A DNA stretch of 64,000 nucleotides from Planctomycetota bacterium (GTDB lineage Bacteria > Planctomycetota > Planctomycetia > Gemmatales > Gemmataceae): NCBI GenBank assembly GCA_029777335.1, contig JAKOSN010000181.1, positions 1-64,000 on the forward strand, in the 5' to 3' direction. The translations under genes were made by a program, and so were the position numbers. The notes beneath the pieces are model-generated. The model was not told the origin of the DNA, did no database searches, and was given only the letters and a program-made list of their open reading frames with translations. Below are positions 27,825 to 39,100 of this stretch, piece by piece. Every line of letters begins with the position of its first letter. Within the stretch, counting starts at the first letter, position 1.

Positions 27825-29138
27825 ATGCTGGCGAGCAAGCAACTGTCTTTTGCGGATATTCAAGAGCGCACATGTGATGTTGTGTCCACAGCGCTGGCAA
27901 TCCCCCGGGAGCGGGTTCAGCCGGGGTATTCGCTTGTTGAAGATCTGGGGGCGGACAGCCTTGATCTGATTGAGCTGGTGATGACCCTCGAGGAAACCTT
28001 CCAGGTCACTCTGCCGGAGGATCCTCCCAATGCGATCTACAAAACGGTTTTCACCCGCCACCCATTTCGCCTTTCGGACCTGGCCGAATTGGTCTACCTC
28101 CAACAGGGGAGTGGAACTCCGGTGCGAAGAGGGTGGCGCAGGGCGATTGCAAATCCGCTGTCGACACATGCGCTCCCCTTCACTCAACTCGGCGGGGTCT
28201 GGCAGCGCGACCAGCGCGGCTCTCAGTCCCTCCTTGAACGCGTTCGGACGGACGGGGCGGTCCCCCACTATCGCAGGCGATCCGATGGGATGCGGTGTGT
28301 GCTCCTTCCAGCCGCTACCGTTGAGATCGGTTGCCCCGCGCCCGAGTCGGATCCTGACGCACGCCCGAGACATTCCGTCTCGATCGACGCATTTCTGATC
28401 GATGCCGAGCCCGTCTCCACCACTGCCTATTGTCGCTTTCTCAACTCTGTAAAGGGTGTTTATCGGGCCACGCTACAGGAGTGGTTTCTCCTCGATCCCG
28501 AGGATGATCGCAATGCTCACGCGCTGGTGTTCTACACCGCAGCGGGATGGCAACCAGTGCGTGGCACGGAGCAGTGGCCAATGATCCTTGTCTCGTGGTA
28601 TGGAGCGAATGCCTACTCACTCTGGGCCAACAACAAGGATTGGCAAAACTATCGCGATGATCGTGATGCAACGGAGGGGAGTTACCTCCCGACCGAAGCG
28701 CAATGGGAATATGCCGCCCGCGGCGCGTGGTCCCAGGCCTTTCCCTGGGGAAACCAACCGGCGAACCACGAACTGGCACACTTTGGCCAGCATCAGCGCT
28801 CGGCGTCTTATTGTGCGGACACGCTTCCTCTGGTGGCGGTCCATGAACCGCTCGGCCTTTCTCCCTTTGGTCTGCATCACATGGCGGGGAATGTCTGGCA
28901 GTGGTGTCGTGACTGGTACCACCCCGCCTTTTATCAGACCGAGGCGGCCCGAGCACCGAATCCAGTGAATCGGCAACCTACGGGGATACGCAGCGAACGT
29001 GGGGGGAGCTGGGTGGGGCCTGCGCATCTGTGTCGCAGTTCGCATCGCCGCGGACGCCCCCCTCTGGTACGTGGACGATGTCTCGGTTTCCGGTGTGTCA
29101 GTTCCCTGAGCGATGCGCAGCGGTGCTCGCCTTGCTGA
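27825..29138 (+). CDS. Fusion of acyl carrier protein and SUMF1 (formylglycine-generating-enzyme-like) domain
   Basis: A 437-residue protein. Residues about 5-95 are an acyl carrier domain with the 4'-phosphopantetheine site GADSLDLIELVM (Ser 45), preceded by VQPGYSLVEDL. Residues about 165-430 are a SUMF1/FGE-like domain: AEPVSTTAYCRFLNSV, PMILVSWYGANAYSLWAN, YLPTEAQWEYAARGAW, PFGLHHMAGNVWQWCRDWY and RSERGGSWVGPAHLCRSSHR. Classical FGE has two active-site cysteines in the last motif; here one Cys fits and the second is missing, so true formylglycine synthesis is doubtful. It could modify a carrier-bound substrate (speculation). A 148-bp gap separates it from the glycosyltransferase. Confidence 0.85.
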   Translation: MLASKQLSFADIQERTCDVVSTALAIPRERVQPGYSLVEDLGADSLDLIELVMTLEETFQVTLPEDPPNAIYKTVFTRHPFRLSDLAELVYLQQGSGTPVRRGWRRAIANPLSTHALPFTQLGGVWQRDQRGSQSLLERVRTDGAVPHYRRRSDGMRCVLLPAATVEIGCPAPESDPDARPRHSVSIDAFLIDAEPVSTTAYCRFLNSVKGVYRATLQEWFLLDPEDDRNAHALVFYTAAGWQPVRGTEQWPMILVSWYGANAYSLWANNKDWQNYRDDRDATEGSYLPTEAQWEYAARGAWSQAFPWGNQPANHELAHFGQHQRSASYCADTLPLVAVHEPLGLSPFGLHHMAGNVWQWCRDWYHPAFYQTEAARAPNPVNRQPTGIRSERGGSWVGPAHLCRSSHRRGRPPLVRGRCLGFRCVSSLSDAQRCSPC

Positions 29139-29171: not shown

Positions 29172-29903
29172 CTATCCCCCGGCGCGCTTGACTCGGTAGC
29201 CGAGCGCTTCGAGTTCCACAATCAGTCGATCGCGCTGATCGCCCTGAATCTCGATGCGGCCCTCCTTGACCGTTCCACCCGTCCCGCAGCGATCCTTAAG
29301 TCGCGTGGCGAGGGCGAGTAGTTCTTGCTCGTTGAGGGGAAGGTCCGAGACAACCGTCACCCCCTTGCCGCGTCGCCCCTTTGTTTCCCGACCGACGCGC
29401 ACCACGGGAGCACTCTTCCCTCGATTATTCTGGAGCGAGCAGACGGCGGGGGGGACGGAAGGCTGCCGAGGAGTGCTCGCGCGGAGGGCAGTGATCAGCT
29501 GCCGCACTTCCGTGTCGATCAGAGGGAGAATGCCCGGGACATCGTCGATGTGCCAGTATTCGACCTTCTGCACAAAGGTGGGGTGCCGTTCCTGGACCAG
29601 GGGAAGATGTTCCTCGCGTTTGAGCGCGATTACACGATGGGCTCGCTCCAGATCGTCGCTGGTGACGGCAGCCGGGTAACGTGCAAAGTCGAGCAGCGCG
29701 CGAATCCCCTGGGCAAGGAGGGCGTCGATGGCGTCTGGCGCCATGGGACCCACATTGTTAACTCCCCGTTCCAGAGCGAGCGCACGCGAGGTTGCGCGCC
29801 AGGGCAACTCCTCGCGCAGGGCGAGTTCATTGAACAGGGTTTCGGCGAACCGACTGCGGTAGAAGTTCCCCGTGCAAAGGAACAGGATGGTCTGGTGGCT
29901 CAT
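29172..29903 (-). CDS. Fusion of LMW-phosphatase-like domain and SUI1/YciH translation factor domain
   Basis: From ATG 29903 (MSHQTILFLC) the protein has 243 residues. The first about 155 match low-molecular-weight protein tyrosine phosphatase/arsenate reductase-like proteins: FLCTGNFYRSRFAETLFNE contains the CX5R(S) catalytic P-loop, with HIDDVPG as a possible acid loop. After a linker, about 175-243 is a eIF1/SUI1 (YciH) domain with RRGKGVTVVSDLP, KDRCGTGGTVKEGRIEIQGDQ and a GYRVKRAGG end. Free-standing bacterial YciH proteins influence initiation-codon choice. ATG 29912 (MGTMSHQ) is an alternative start. A cyclic-di-GMP-I riboswitch lies about 275 bp upstream on the same strand. Confidence 0.88.
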   Translation of the reverse strand: MSHQTILFLCTGNFYRSRFAETLFNELALREELPWRATSRALALERGVNNVGPMAPDAIDALLAQGIRALLDFARYPAAVTSDDLERAHRVIALKREEHLPLVQERHPTFVQKVEYWHIDDVPGILPLIDTEVRQLITALRASTPRQPSVPPAVCSLQNNRGKSAPVVRVGRETKGRRGKGVTVVSDLPLNEQELLALATRLKDRCGTGGTVKEGRIEIQGDQRDRLIVELEALGYRVKRAGG

Positions 29904-30499
29904 GGTTCCCATCGTCGGCCATTTTCCGTCGAGCAGAACAGATCGGGACCGTCTCCCGTCGTCCCATGGGGTAGATCTTAGCAAGCGCAGGAAGGTAAGG
30001 GAGAGAAAAGGGGGTGGCGCGGAACTGGAGAGACGGAGGAGAGAAGGCGCAAAGAGAAAAAAGCAGAGCAAGTCTCACTGTAACCAGTCACCTGGTCCCT
30101 GGATCCAAGGCGAGCAGCAGCAGCCTTCTTGCCACTGGGATTGCTCGGGGACGGACGGGCTCTTCGCCTGAGTCCATCCCTTCGGCAGCCTGGCAACCAC
30201 CGGTCACAGCCAAGGCTGAAGGACCGAAGGCCCGATGGCTTTGCGCCCCCGTCTTTCGAGCGGGTTTGCCCTTTCGAGGAGGAAAGGCGTTGTGATCCAG
30301 GCACGACAGCGAGACTTGCTCCCGAGGATGCCACCAAAGCTGGCAGACTCGTTCGCTGACCAACTCTAGATCTTTTTCTGACCCGGAGCAAGCCAGCGCC
30401 CGTTCCTCTCCTGGATTTTGTCGCACTTCAGGTAAGATCGTCAAACTTTTACGCCGATAAGAAAAGGGGAGGGTCCGTGGTCCTATCAGGAGGACGTCG
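29904..30499. other. Divergent intergenic region holding the riboswitch
   Basis: 596 bases between the phosphatase-SUI1 gene (minus) and the four-repeat gene (plus). The minus strand holds the riboswitch at 30178-30287 and a pyrimidine-rich stretch near 29995-30065 with a T6 run. I could not find a convincing terminator stem as expression platform. Confidence 0.6.
30178..30287 (-). promoter_or_regulatory. Cyclic-di-GMP-I (GEMM) riboswitch aptamer
   Basis: Read on the minus strand the consensus blocks are in order: GGGCAAACC, a short stem with GAAA tetraloop (CTCGAAAGA), GGGGCGCAAAGCC, ATCGGGCCT, a P3 stem of variable sequence, then GACCGGTGGTTGCCAGG and CTGCCG. An outer stem CCTTTC (30287-30282) with GAAGGG (30183-30178) closes it. 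This is the GEMM-I arrangement that binds cyclic di-GMP, or in some variants cGAMP. The first minus-strand gene below it is the phosphatase-SUI1 fusion starting at 29903. Confidence 0.85.
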
Positions 30500-35621: not shown

Positions 35622-35921
35622 ATGACTGCCGTGGTAAGCAGAACGGATCACATCTCCACTATCACGGCGGCGGGAGTAGCAAACATGATTTTGCATGGTG
35701 CCAGCTGTCTGGAAGGGCCAATCACGCGTCAACGGACCTGGTGGCAGGAAGCGAACATCGAGCCAGTGAACCCGGCTGCTCATCAGGAAGAGCACAACGA
35801 GGAGGGGATTCGCCCCGCCCTGGTCGCGCGGGTGCGTAAGGCCATCGCCGAGGGCACTTACGATACCCCCGAAAAATGGGAAGCCGCCCTGGACCGTCTT
35901 CTGGACGAGGTGATGGGCTAA
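35622..35921 (+). CDS. Small protein with FlgM-like C-terminus
   Basis: About 99 residues from ATG 35622; TTG 35592 and later ATGs are alternatives, so the N-terminus is uncertain. The C-terminal 35 residues (RPALVARVRKAIAEGTYDTPEKWEAALDRLLDEVMG) match the pattern of the anti-sigma-28 factor FlgM: R-x-x-x-V-x-x-[IV]-[RK]-x-x-I-x-x-G-T-Y followed by an amphipathic helix. The N-terminal part is not recognisable. No flagellar gene is near. Planctomycetes encode several such small FlgM-like proteins whose partner sigma factor is unclear. Confidence 0.55.
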   Translation: MTAVVSRTDHISTITAAGVANMILHGASCLEGPITRQRTWWQEANIEPVNPAAHQEEHNEEGIRPALVARVRKAIAEGTYDTPEKWEAALDRLLDEVMG

Positions 35922-35939
35922 CGAGTCAAGCTGAGCAAT

Positions 35940-36004
35940 AAGACGAGGGCGTTTTCGCTCCAGCCCTTTTCGGAAGGGCCGGCCGCGGAAATGCCCTCGT
36001 TCTT
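35940..36004 (+). terminator. Branched hairpin between FlgM-like gene and selC
   Basis: AAGACGAGGGC at 35940-35950 pairs with GCCCTCGTTCTT at 35993-36004, with one extra T, enclosing an inner CCCTTTTCGGAAGGG hairpin. It ends 25 bases before the selC -35 box. It could be a terminator for the preceding gene or a small structured RNA. Confidence 0.55.
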
Positions 36005-36028
36005 CCTTGCGCGAGCCCGCGCCGCGCT

Positions 36029-36057
36029 TGACCGCTGCGCCCCACCTCGCTATGATT
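36029..36057 (+). promoter_or_regulatory. selC promoter
   Basis: TTGACC at 36029-36034 and TATGAT at 36052-36057 are exactly 17 bp apart. The predicted start lies about 18 bases before the tRNA. This is the best match to the housekeeping promoter consensus in the window. Confidence 0.75.
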
Positions 36058-36081
36058 CATCCAGCAACAAGTATCGCCCCT

Positions 36082-36176
36082 GGAAGTGTTTGCACCGCTG
36101 GTGCGGGCCCTGGTCTTCAAAACCAGTGGAGGGCTTGAAAAAAGTCTTCAGTGGGTTCGATTCCCATACACTTCCG
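36082..36176 (+). tRNA. selC: tRNA-Sec (UCA anticodon)
   Basis: A 95-nt tRNA. The acceptor stem GGAAGTGT/ACACTTCC has 8 bp, as in bacterial selenocysteine tRNAs. The D stem is extended (GCACC/GGTGC), the anticodon arm is CTGGT-CTTCAAA-ACCAG with anticodon TCA, the variable arm is long (AGGGCTT paired with AAGTCTT, allowing G-U pairs), and the T arm is TGGG-TTCGATT-CCCA. No encoded CCA follows. It decodes UGA as selenocysteine, needing SelA, SelB and SelD encoded elsewhere; none is in the window. The minus-strand haem gene ends 8 bases away. Confidence 0.95.
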
Positions 36177-36183
36177 CTCTCCC

Positions 36184-39100
36184 CTACTCCTTTCGCTTTT
36201 CCCCACTCGTCGGGATCTCATTGAGGGTATAAGCACCCGTTGGGTGAACCAGGGCCTCGCCCTGAGCCGATCGCACTCCCGACGCCTGGATCATGTACAC
36301 GCGGTCCTTGACCAGCGCCGCGGTGTGCAACTCCACGCTCCGGCCATCGGTGGACACCTCCACCCGCTCGATCGGTAACCGCGTGCGCTCCAGTTCCGCC
36401 GAGCCATAGGCCCCGGTGTACTCATAACGGTGATAATCGATCCGATAAGACGCCAACTCCCGGGCTGTGGCCGCCGATACCGGCCGGGTGAACACCAACC
36501 GAAATCCGCGGGGGAGCACATGAATCGACCTGATCTCAAAGGGGTGCACTCCGGTGAAATCGAGACGGAAGAGCGCCCCGCGATCGGGCTGGGCCATCCA
36601 GCCGGGCTCGGTGATGCCTCCCACCCACAGCCGTCCTCGTGGATCGAAGGCCATCGTCACCGGGCCCAGCAAGCCGCGTCCCCAGAATGGGAAACATGCG
36701 CCCTGATACTGGCCGTTCACCTTCTCCACGTTGGCACGGATGATCGCGCCGCCAAACATCAGCTCGGCGAGGAAAATCTGCCCGTCAAAGGGCCCGAACT
36801 TCCCGCCGGTGTTGTCGTAGGCCATGCCATTGATCGACTTCGCCCAGCCGTACGGAATCCAGACCGTCGTTTTGGCCCTTGGCTTTCTGGCATGGTCGCG
36901 TTGAGCGGGGTTGGGAAAGCCGTGGAAGTGCCCTTCCACCAGATGGCAGAGCTTGTTGGTCGCCACCCATTCCCCCTGGTTATCGGTGAAGAAGATCTCG
37001 CCATCCGGCCCACTGCACCAACCCAGCGGGTTGCGGAAGCCATACCCGATCTCCTGCGGTTTCTTCCCGGGCACCAGCCGTAACGCGCTCCCGGACCCGG
37101 GGAGATGGGTGTTGGCATACGGAGCAAAGGTGTAGATGAACGCTCCGGTCCGATCGCGCGCCAGCCCGTAGGCGTAGTCGTAGGTGTCGGCGATCCCGTG
37201 TGGCAGGGTCGCCACGCGCTCAAAGCGATCGGCGCGGCCATCGTGATCGGTGTCGAGCACGCGGGTCAGATTGCGCCGATGGAGCACATACAACCCCTCG
37301 CGATCGGCGAGCATGGAGTAACACTCCTGAAAGAGCCCGCCCGTGTAATTCTCAAAGCGCGCTTGCTTGCCATCATCCGAGGGATCGCGCACCGCCAGAA
37401 TCTCCCCGGTTTTCATCGAGGCGACAAACACACGTCCCTGGCGCGGATCGACCGCAATCGCTCCCGGCATGACACGATCCTCGCCGGAGGCCGTCTTTGG
37501 GCGCGGGTAGGCAAGCGCTCGATAGCCTGGGCGCACAAGACTTCCCTCAATGCTGCCCGTATCGAGCAGCCGGGGTTGTGGCACCATTGCCGGGGCCGTT
37601 TCTGCCGGAAGATCGAGCGTAAGAGTGATCGCCACCTCTCCCTTGTCGTCGGGGAGGAGCGTGGTCTGTAGCGCCTCGCCCTTGCGCATCTGCTTCACCG
37701 CTCCGCTCGTGGCTTTTGCGGAGACAGAGAGTTTCACCGGCGAGCGGCCAAGGAGCACCAGGGCGGACGGAGCCTTGCTGACAGTGAGATGTCGCACCAG
37801 GCGCCGCTGGCTCCCCTCGCGCTGCAGACGCACGGTTTCCACCAATTCGATCTTGGCAGAGGGAAATTGAAGCTGAAAGCGTAGGCGCGCTCCATCGGCA
37901 AGGCGCTCGTAGCCATGAAAGACAATCGTCTGAGGGGTTTCCAGGCGATCCCTGCCCTGGAGTTGCCAGGGGGGCGCTTCACGCAGGCCGGTGCCGAGGG
38001 GCGTTCCGGCCAGGAGAAAACGCCGTAAGCGGCCCTGCACTTCGCGCTGAATCTGTGCCCCGGTCCAGCCACTGTGCAGCGCTGCGGTCCCCAGATCATA
38101 GACAAAGAGATCGTGACTACCGTGGAGCAGACAGAGGCTCTCCAGCACCTCGCCGTCGGGGAGATGCATGGGAATCTGCGCGACCAGGGGAGGCTCCTCC
38201 CGACCCGGGCCTTCGATCGGCATGGGGGGAGGCGGTTTCGGGGTCGGGGCTCGGTCGCCCAGCGCGAAATAACTCCACAATGCCTCTTTCTGTTTGGCGG
38301 CATCCGCGTCGAGCACGGCGCGGAGCAGGGCGGGCTTTCCCTTCTCGAAGATGGCAGGCATTGGCGTGTTGGGATGGAAGCGCGCCGGTCCTTCGAGAAA
38401 GCGGTCAAACCAGGCGCGCCGAATGCGCCCCGGGATGCGCGTCAGGTCCGTCCCAATCGCGCCTGGATCGGGGTCGGCGAGAGTCTGGCCCTTCCACACA
38501 TGGCACGACACACAGGCATAGCCCTGAAAGCCCACCAGATTCGGCCCGGTGAGTGAGCCCAGCGTCGGATCCGCGGGTTTCGCTGGCGCCGTTTCTTCTG
38601 CTTCGAGAAGCTCCCCGTCGCCTTCGGCCAGCGCCTGGACAATCCACTCTGCCTCGCGACCAAACGAGGGCATGCGATAGGAATAGCGCGCATGGCGTAG
38701 TCCGCTCACTCCCTCGCGCACCGCTGAACGCAGATAGTCGGCGCTGTACTTCTGATGGGGAAAGCTCAGTCTGGGAGTTCGTTGATAAGGGATGTTCTGC
38801 AACCAGGCTCCGCCCAGAGTGCTGCCGATCGTCTCCAGGGGCGGAGGTCGATCGCTATCGCGTTGGTGGCACCGGACACAACCCAGAAAAGCCAGCTGGC
38901 GTTGCCGATTGGCGAACGGCGAATGGTATTTCTCCAGAGCCGCCCCTTCCTGGTAAGCAAGGATCGCCGCGCGCGTGCTGGCATCGAGCGGAAAACGCGG
39001 GAGCGAGTTGCCCGCCAGACAGCCCCGCTTGTCACTCTTTCCGGTGAAGGGAAGATCTGGCGAAAGTCCCTGGCCCAGACCTGTGTGGCAATCGGCACAT

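Follow-up and report, generated by a model that had tools for sequence, protein, structure and literature searches.

A free-standing selenocysteine tRNA gene with a predicted promoter of its own in a Gemmataceae-like planctomycete

Introduction

A reading of the sequence alone had reported an isolated selenocysteine tRNA (tRNA-Sec) gene, selC, in a 64,000-nucleotide stretch of planctomycete DNA (hereafter, the window). Does this gene serve the decoding of UGA as selenocysteine (Sec), with its partner genes elsewhere in the genome, or is it a relic of a lost trait? Passages of an earlier study describe complete sets of Sec genes for Gemmata obscuriglobus and Isosphaera pallida, and sel genes that are not co-localised in the planctomycete strain P1 (PMC4807772). 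The canonical tRNA-Sec fold is treated in sections of PMC7609411 and PMC5330540, and general background in parts of PMC1794560, PMC5029168 and PMC8124441. We found no paper devoted to planctomycete tRNA-Sec in the open-licence literature, which is little guide to all print. Here, we analysed the window, the draft assembly from which it comes and a relatives' set of 41 genomes (its own and 40 others).

Results

The locus encodes a bacterial-type tRNA-Sec

The single tRNA that ARAGORN called in the window is a forward-strand tRNA-SeC (tca) spanning 36082-36177, and Rfam placed a match to the bacterial tRNA-Sec model RF01852 at 36082-36175 (71.9 bits; gathering cut-off, 47). Counting the discriminator G at 36176, the gene is 95 nt long (Table 1); the sequence GCTC follows directly, and the 3' CCA is therefore absent from the gene. 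The predicted fold has an MFE of -40.1 kcal/mol (z, -3.97), and only 1 of 200 shuffled sequences folded equally well. It comprises an acceptor of 8 bp, an anticodon stem of 5 bp, a variable arm of 8 bp and a T stem of 5 bp. The acceptor and T stems form a 13-bp branch in the 8/5 arrangement of bacterial tRNA-Sec, to which the UCA anticodon and the score above the gathering cut-off likewise assign the gene. The D stem, of 6 bp with a 4-nt loop (UGGU), also agrees with the bacterial form and carries one bulged A. The full 95-nt tRNA-Sec with UCA anticodon, 8-bp acceptor and long variable arm of the sequence-only reading was thus found again by ARAGORN, by Rfam and in the fold.

Table 1. Positions of selC and its 5' elements in the window.
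Feature	Position	Strand	Basis
selC (tRNA-Sec), including the discriminator G but no CCA	36082..36176	+	ARAGORN, RF01852, fold, covariation (n = 28)
Anticodon UCA	36117..36119	+	ARAGORN; position 36 of the tRNA
Single bulged A, 5' strand of the 6-bp D stem	36094..36094	+	Fold; insertion in the Rfam alignment
Predicted selC promoter: TTGACC (36028-36033), 17-bp spacer, TATGAT (36051-36056)	36028..36056	+	Site scan and comparison of 28 selC loci
5' flank: probable transcription start, short leader for RNase P removal	36057..36081	+	Inferred from promoter and tRNA positions

When tRNA-Sec sequences from 28 genomes of the relatives' set were aligned (98 columns), 99.2% of the 896 cells at paired positions were paired. 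Changes on both sides occurred in 19 of the 32 pairs, including 3 of the 6 D-stem pairs, and the covariation score was 0.428, compared with a mean of 0.141 after shuffling. Pairing and covariation in these 28 sequences therefore support the tRNA-Sec structure. We conclude that the locus is a real selenocysteine tRNA gene.

The gene shares with the known bacterial tRNA-Sec (RF01852) the 8/5 fold, the 6-bp D stem, the 4-nt loop, the long variable arm, the UCA anticodon and the discriminator G, but differs from it by the one extra nucleotide bulged from the 5' strand of the D stem. Of the 28 sequences in the alignment, only L027 lacks this base; in the other 27 it separates the second D-stem pair from the third. 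A pattern requiring the bulge matched at least 117 stretches; most of the 80 loci listed among them bear planctomycete titles, and among the matches listed the pattern also appeared in some KSB1, Verrucomicrobiales, Myxococcota and Calditrichaeota. Judged by eye, 30 loci from across the phylum included D stems both with and without the extra base. A section of PMC5330540 notes that the stems of some tRNA-Sec contain bulged nucleotides, with the D stem of Clostridiales among the examples. The bulge is a structural variant and not a new class of tRNA.

The promoter is shared by some relatives

The box TTGACC-17-TATGAT matches the consensus at 10 of 12 positions and is the sole promoter-like site within 35900-36400; one such site was found where 0.1 was expected in shuffled sequence. 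Its first base is 36028, one position upstream of the start given by the sequence-only reading, whose promoter was otherwise upheld. We scanned the 70 bases upstream of each of the 28 selC genes for a strict box, TTGACN-(16 to 18)-TANNNT. Six carried it, against an expectation of about 0.07 (derived from 9 strict boxes on both strands of 160,592 bases of loci, the 6 counted in); in each the spacer was 17 and the box stopped 25-26 nt short of the tRNA. The strict box was missing from the other 22. Under looser scoring, the mean best value was 7.6 of 12 in the selC upstream regions, compared with 6.0 in stretches drawn at random from these loci. The occurrence of the strict box at a like distance in 6 of 28 loci, far above expectation, supports the promoter reading. 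A scan for intrinsic-terminator-like sites found none at selC. Transcription of selC alone from a predicted sigma-70-type promoter would best explain this arrangement.

selC stands apart from its partner genes

The sequence-only reading had noted no selA, selB, selD or evident selenoprotein in the window. Searches of the window by tblastn with the SelA and SelB proteins of this genome gave no match, and all three sel genes were located on other contigs. A scan of the window for in-frame TGA with codon scores yielded no convincing selenoprotein gene (top margins, only 1.9), although the method is weak for a UGA near the N terminus, SelD itself ranking only 85th of 3414 sites. The two best candidates were rejected as not gene-like: that at 29107 lies in another frame of a gene for a formylglycine-generating-enzyme (FGE)-like protein, and that at 30090 lies upstream of a phosphatase-like gene.

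Some other features of the window were recorded in passing. The FGE-like domain belongs to a predicted protein (27825-29138, +) in which it is fused to an N-terminal phosphopantetheine (acyl-carrier) domain. The gene at 29172-30071 (-) encodes a low-molecular-weight phosphotyrosine phosphatase domain together with a SUI1 domain in one protein, and just upstream of it is a c-di-GMP-I riboswitch (30181-30280, -; RF01051, 55.3 bits).

Among the 28 selC loci, whose flanks were searched with this genome's queries up to 1.5 kb (some being ended by contig ends), SelA was beside selC in one (L024) and SelB in none. Thus selC is free-standing here, and in the relatives' set, too, it is mostly isolated. 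That the machinery is scattered was confirmed at the contig level, selA, selB and selD being on three other contigs; the distances between the genes lie beyond a draft of 356 contigs in which the window's own contig has 64,459 bases.

The assembly (91.13% complete, 4.81% contaminated) is treated here on the assumption that all contigs come from one organism. The contig with selC could instead be a contaminant, mis-binned from another planctomycete, with the organism's own selC missing from the bin. The level of contamination would allow this, and tblastn of the flanks of the 27 other selC loci detected none of four proteins that the window encodes near selC. However, the contig is 64 kb long, its tRNA resembles those of its family, no other locus in the assembly matches tRNA-Sec strongly (46.6 bits for the runner-up), and we consider a foreign origin very improbable.

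The Sec machinery is complete in the assembly

Profile searches of the assembly detected selA (569.2 bits, contig C39), selB (386.6 bits, C49) and selD (369.4 bits, C356), each above its curated cut-off. With selC, the gene set of the Sec-decoding trait is complete. The selD gene itself contains one in-frame TGA, in the motif CAG-U-AGK.

These results bear on the possibility that selC is a relic that outlived the Sec trait, as the sequence-only reading would have concluded had selA, selB and selD been absent from the genome. The solitary position of selC and the lack of selA and selB in the window would fit a relic. Nevertheless, all three genes are in the assembly above cut-off, and the relic reading is therefore rejected as extremely improbable; the assembly also holds UGA-containing genes, all stems of the tRNA are paired in its predicted structure and the promoter is kept. 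Judging from these sequence features, selC is probably functional.

A second SelD domain was found behind an oxidoreductase domain in an open frame of 756 aa on C217 (L011:1387-3657, -). This fusion scored over the cut-off with TIGR03169 (316.4 bits) and TIGR00476 (287.6 bits) and below it with TIGR04369 (382.6 bits). Selenouridine synthase, considered as the user of its selenophosphate, was not found in the assembly (best score, 24.6 bits; cut-off, 219.75).

At least four genes of selenoprotein families contain UGA

We scanned 611,633 bases of the assembly directly and searched two redox families and the deiodinase family assembly-wide. At least four UGA-containing genes of selenoprotein families were present, namely selD, a pair of deiodinase-like genes and a single peroxiredoxin-like gene. 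With selA, selB and selD, these four suggest that the organism decodes some UGA codons as Sec, as had been proposed. Deiodinase-like, Prx-like and SelD-type selenoproteins of bacteria are described in parts of PMC1088965 and PMC13188914.

The two deiodinase-like genes are adjacent (L074:7954 and 8689, on C18), and in both an in-frame TGA occupies the active-site position. Read through, the first encodes a deiodinase-family protein with EF hands (NF038285, 419.7 bits against a cut-off of 250; PF00837, 105.8 bits), similar to the known bacterial deiodinase-like selenoproteins (PMC1088965, in part). The second is a divergent relative that falls below the cut-off of NF038285 (66.8 bits) and scores 26.6 bits with PF00837 (cut-off, 27). 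It differs in its C-terminal part, which has an EF hand; its motif is FGCLT-U-PPF, and its TGA is present in G036 too. It seems unlikely, if conceivable, that the bulged D stem (GC-A-NNNC-UGGU) is clade-wide in planctomycete tRNA-Sec and has co-evolved with the D-arm-reading domain of SelA and that this second gene represents a selenoprotein subfamily yet to be described in its own right.

The AhpC-TSA family had 22 matches in the assembly, three of them with one TGA: the peroxiredoxin-like gene on C231 (PF00578, 70.9 bits) and the two neighbours on C18. Formate dehydrogenase was rejected as a selenoprotein, since none of the seven TIGR01591 matches in the assembly was over the cut-off; a weak match on C114 (30.9 bits) contains a TGA. 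At L078:5538, on C114, an in-frame TGA is flanked by coding-like sequence on both sides, which could be a broken gene or a new selenoprotein.

When the 42-50 nt downstream of the four UGAs were folded, clear extra stability was seen at one site only, that of the first deiodinase-like gene (z between about -3.0 and -3.4 under single-base shuffling; at the remaining sites, -1.6 to 0.0). Of the UGA genes with SECIS elements that the sequence-only reading had proposed to look for, the genes were thus found, and SECIS hairpins were not established, downstream stability clearly exceeding that of shuffles at only 1 of 4 sites.

tRNA-Sec tracks selA among relatives

tRNA-Sec loci were detected by Rfam in 28 of the 41 genomes and were likewise called SeC, anticodon tca, by ARAGORN. 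Two further loci that we retrieved (G025 and G026) were tRNA-Ser, and the remaining 11 genomes were judged by Rfam scores alone (at most 51.7 bits). All 28 genomes with tRNA-Sec had selA (27 over the cut-off; in G032 as two partial pieces), compared with 3 of the 13 without (G002, G003 and G035). Thus, the presence of tRNA-Sec tracks that of selA in the relatives' set. A model built from the 28 sequences revealed no hidden tRNA-Sec in G002, G003, G017 or G035 (at most 53.5 bits, compared with 109.8 for the window). Second matches to the tRNA-Sec model occurred in G023 and G030 (54.8 and 56.1 bits). Across the phylum, 132 of 199 genomes had a tRNA-Sec match at E <= 1e-9, the weakest of which may be tRNA-Ser.

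In the relatives' set, PF00837 gave 27 matches, spread over 20 genomes: 17 with one TGA, one with a TGA and a TAG, and nine free of stops. Across the 41 genomes, Cys occupied the TGA position in eight of the nine stop-free matches; the ninth, in G017, gave no residue call. Sec and Cys forms of bacterial deiodinase-like proteins are known from the Sargasso Sea set (PMC1088965, in part). Ten of the 12 genomes with one-TGA matches had both tRNA-Sec and selA. In G003, which has such a match, selA and selB were present and tRNA-Sec was not found. G017 has a deiodinase-like gene with TGA (G017:C49:20471-20965) and selB, and neither selA nor tRNA-Sec was found; this, the sole case to run against the general pattern, probably reflects an assembly gap.

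Discussion

The locus is almost certainly the selC of a Gemmataceae-like planctomycete, with a predicted sigma-70-type promoter of its own, and would serve UGA decoding by selA, selB and selD. The tRNA, its fold, the promoter, the three sel genes and the UGA genes are read from the DNA; for the transcription start, the biochemical steps and Sec insertion, established knowledge suggests the following course. RNase P and a CCA-adding enzyme would mature the selC transcript, and SerRS would attach serine to the tRNA. SelA would then convert the charged tRNA to Sec-tRNA, using selenophosphate supplied by SelD, and SelB would deliver the product to the UGA of selD, the two deiodinase-like genes and the peroxiredoxin-like gene.

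The Sec set is full, as in Gemmata obscuriglobus and Isosphaera pallida, and the sel genes lie apart, as in strain P1 (PMC4807772). In the present assembly, selD also contains a UGA, and the deiodinase-like UGA genes form a side-by-side pair. The selC gene is ordinary and expected for its lineage, and adds a member to an already known type. To a lineage already reported to have the trait, the present results add a free-standing selC, a promoter that comparison supports and a full complement of Sec genes. For annotation, a redox gene of this group that contains a TGA should first be checked for Sec at that codon, and only then be declared broken.
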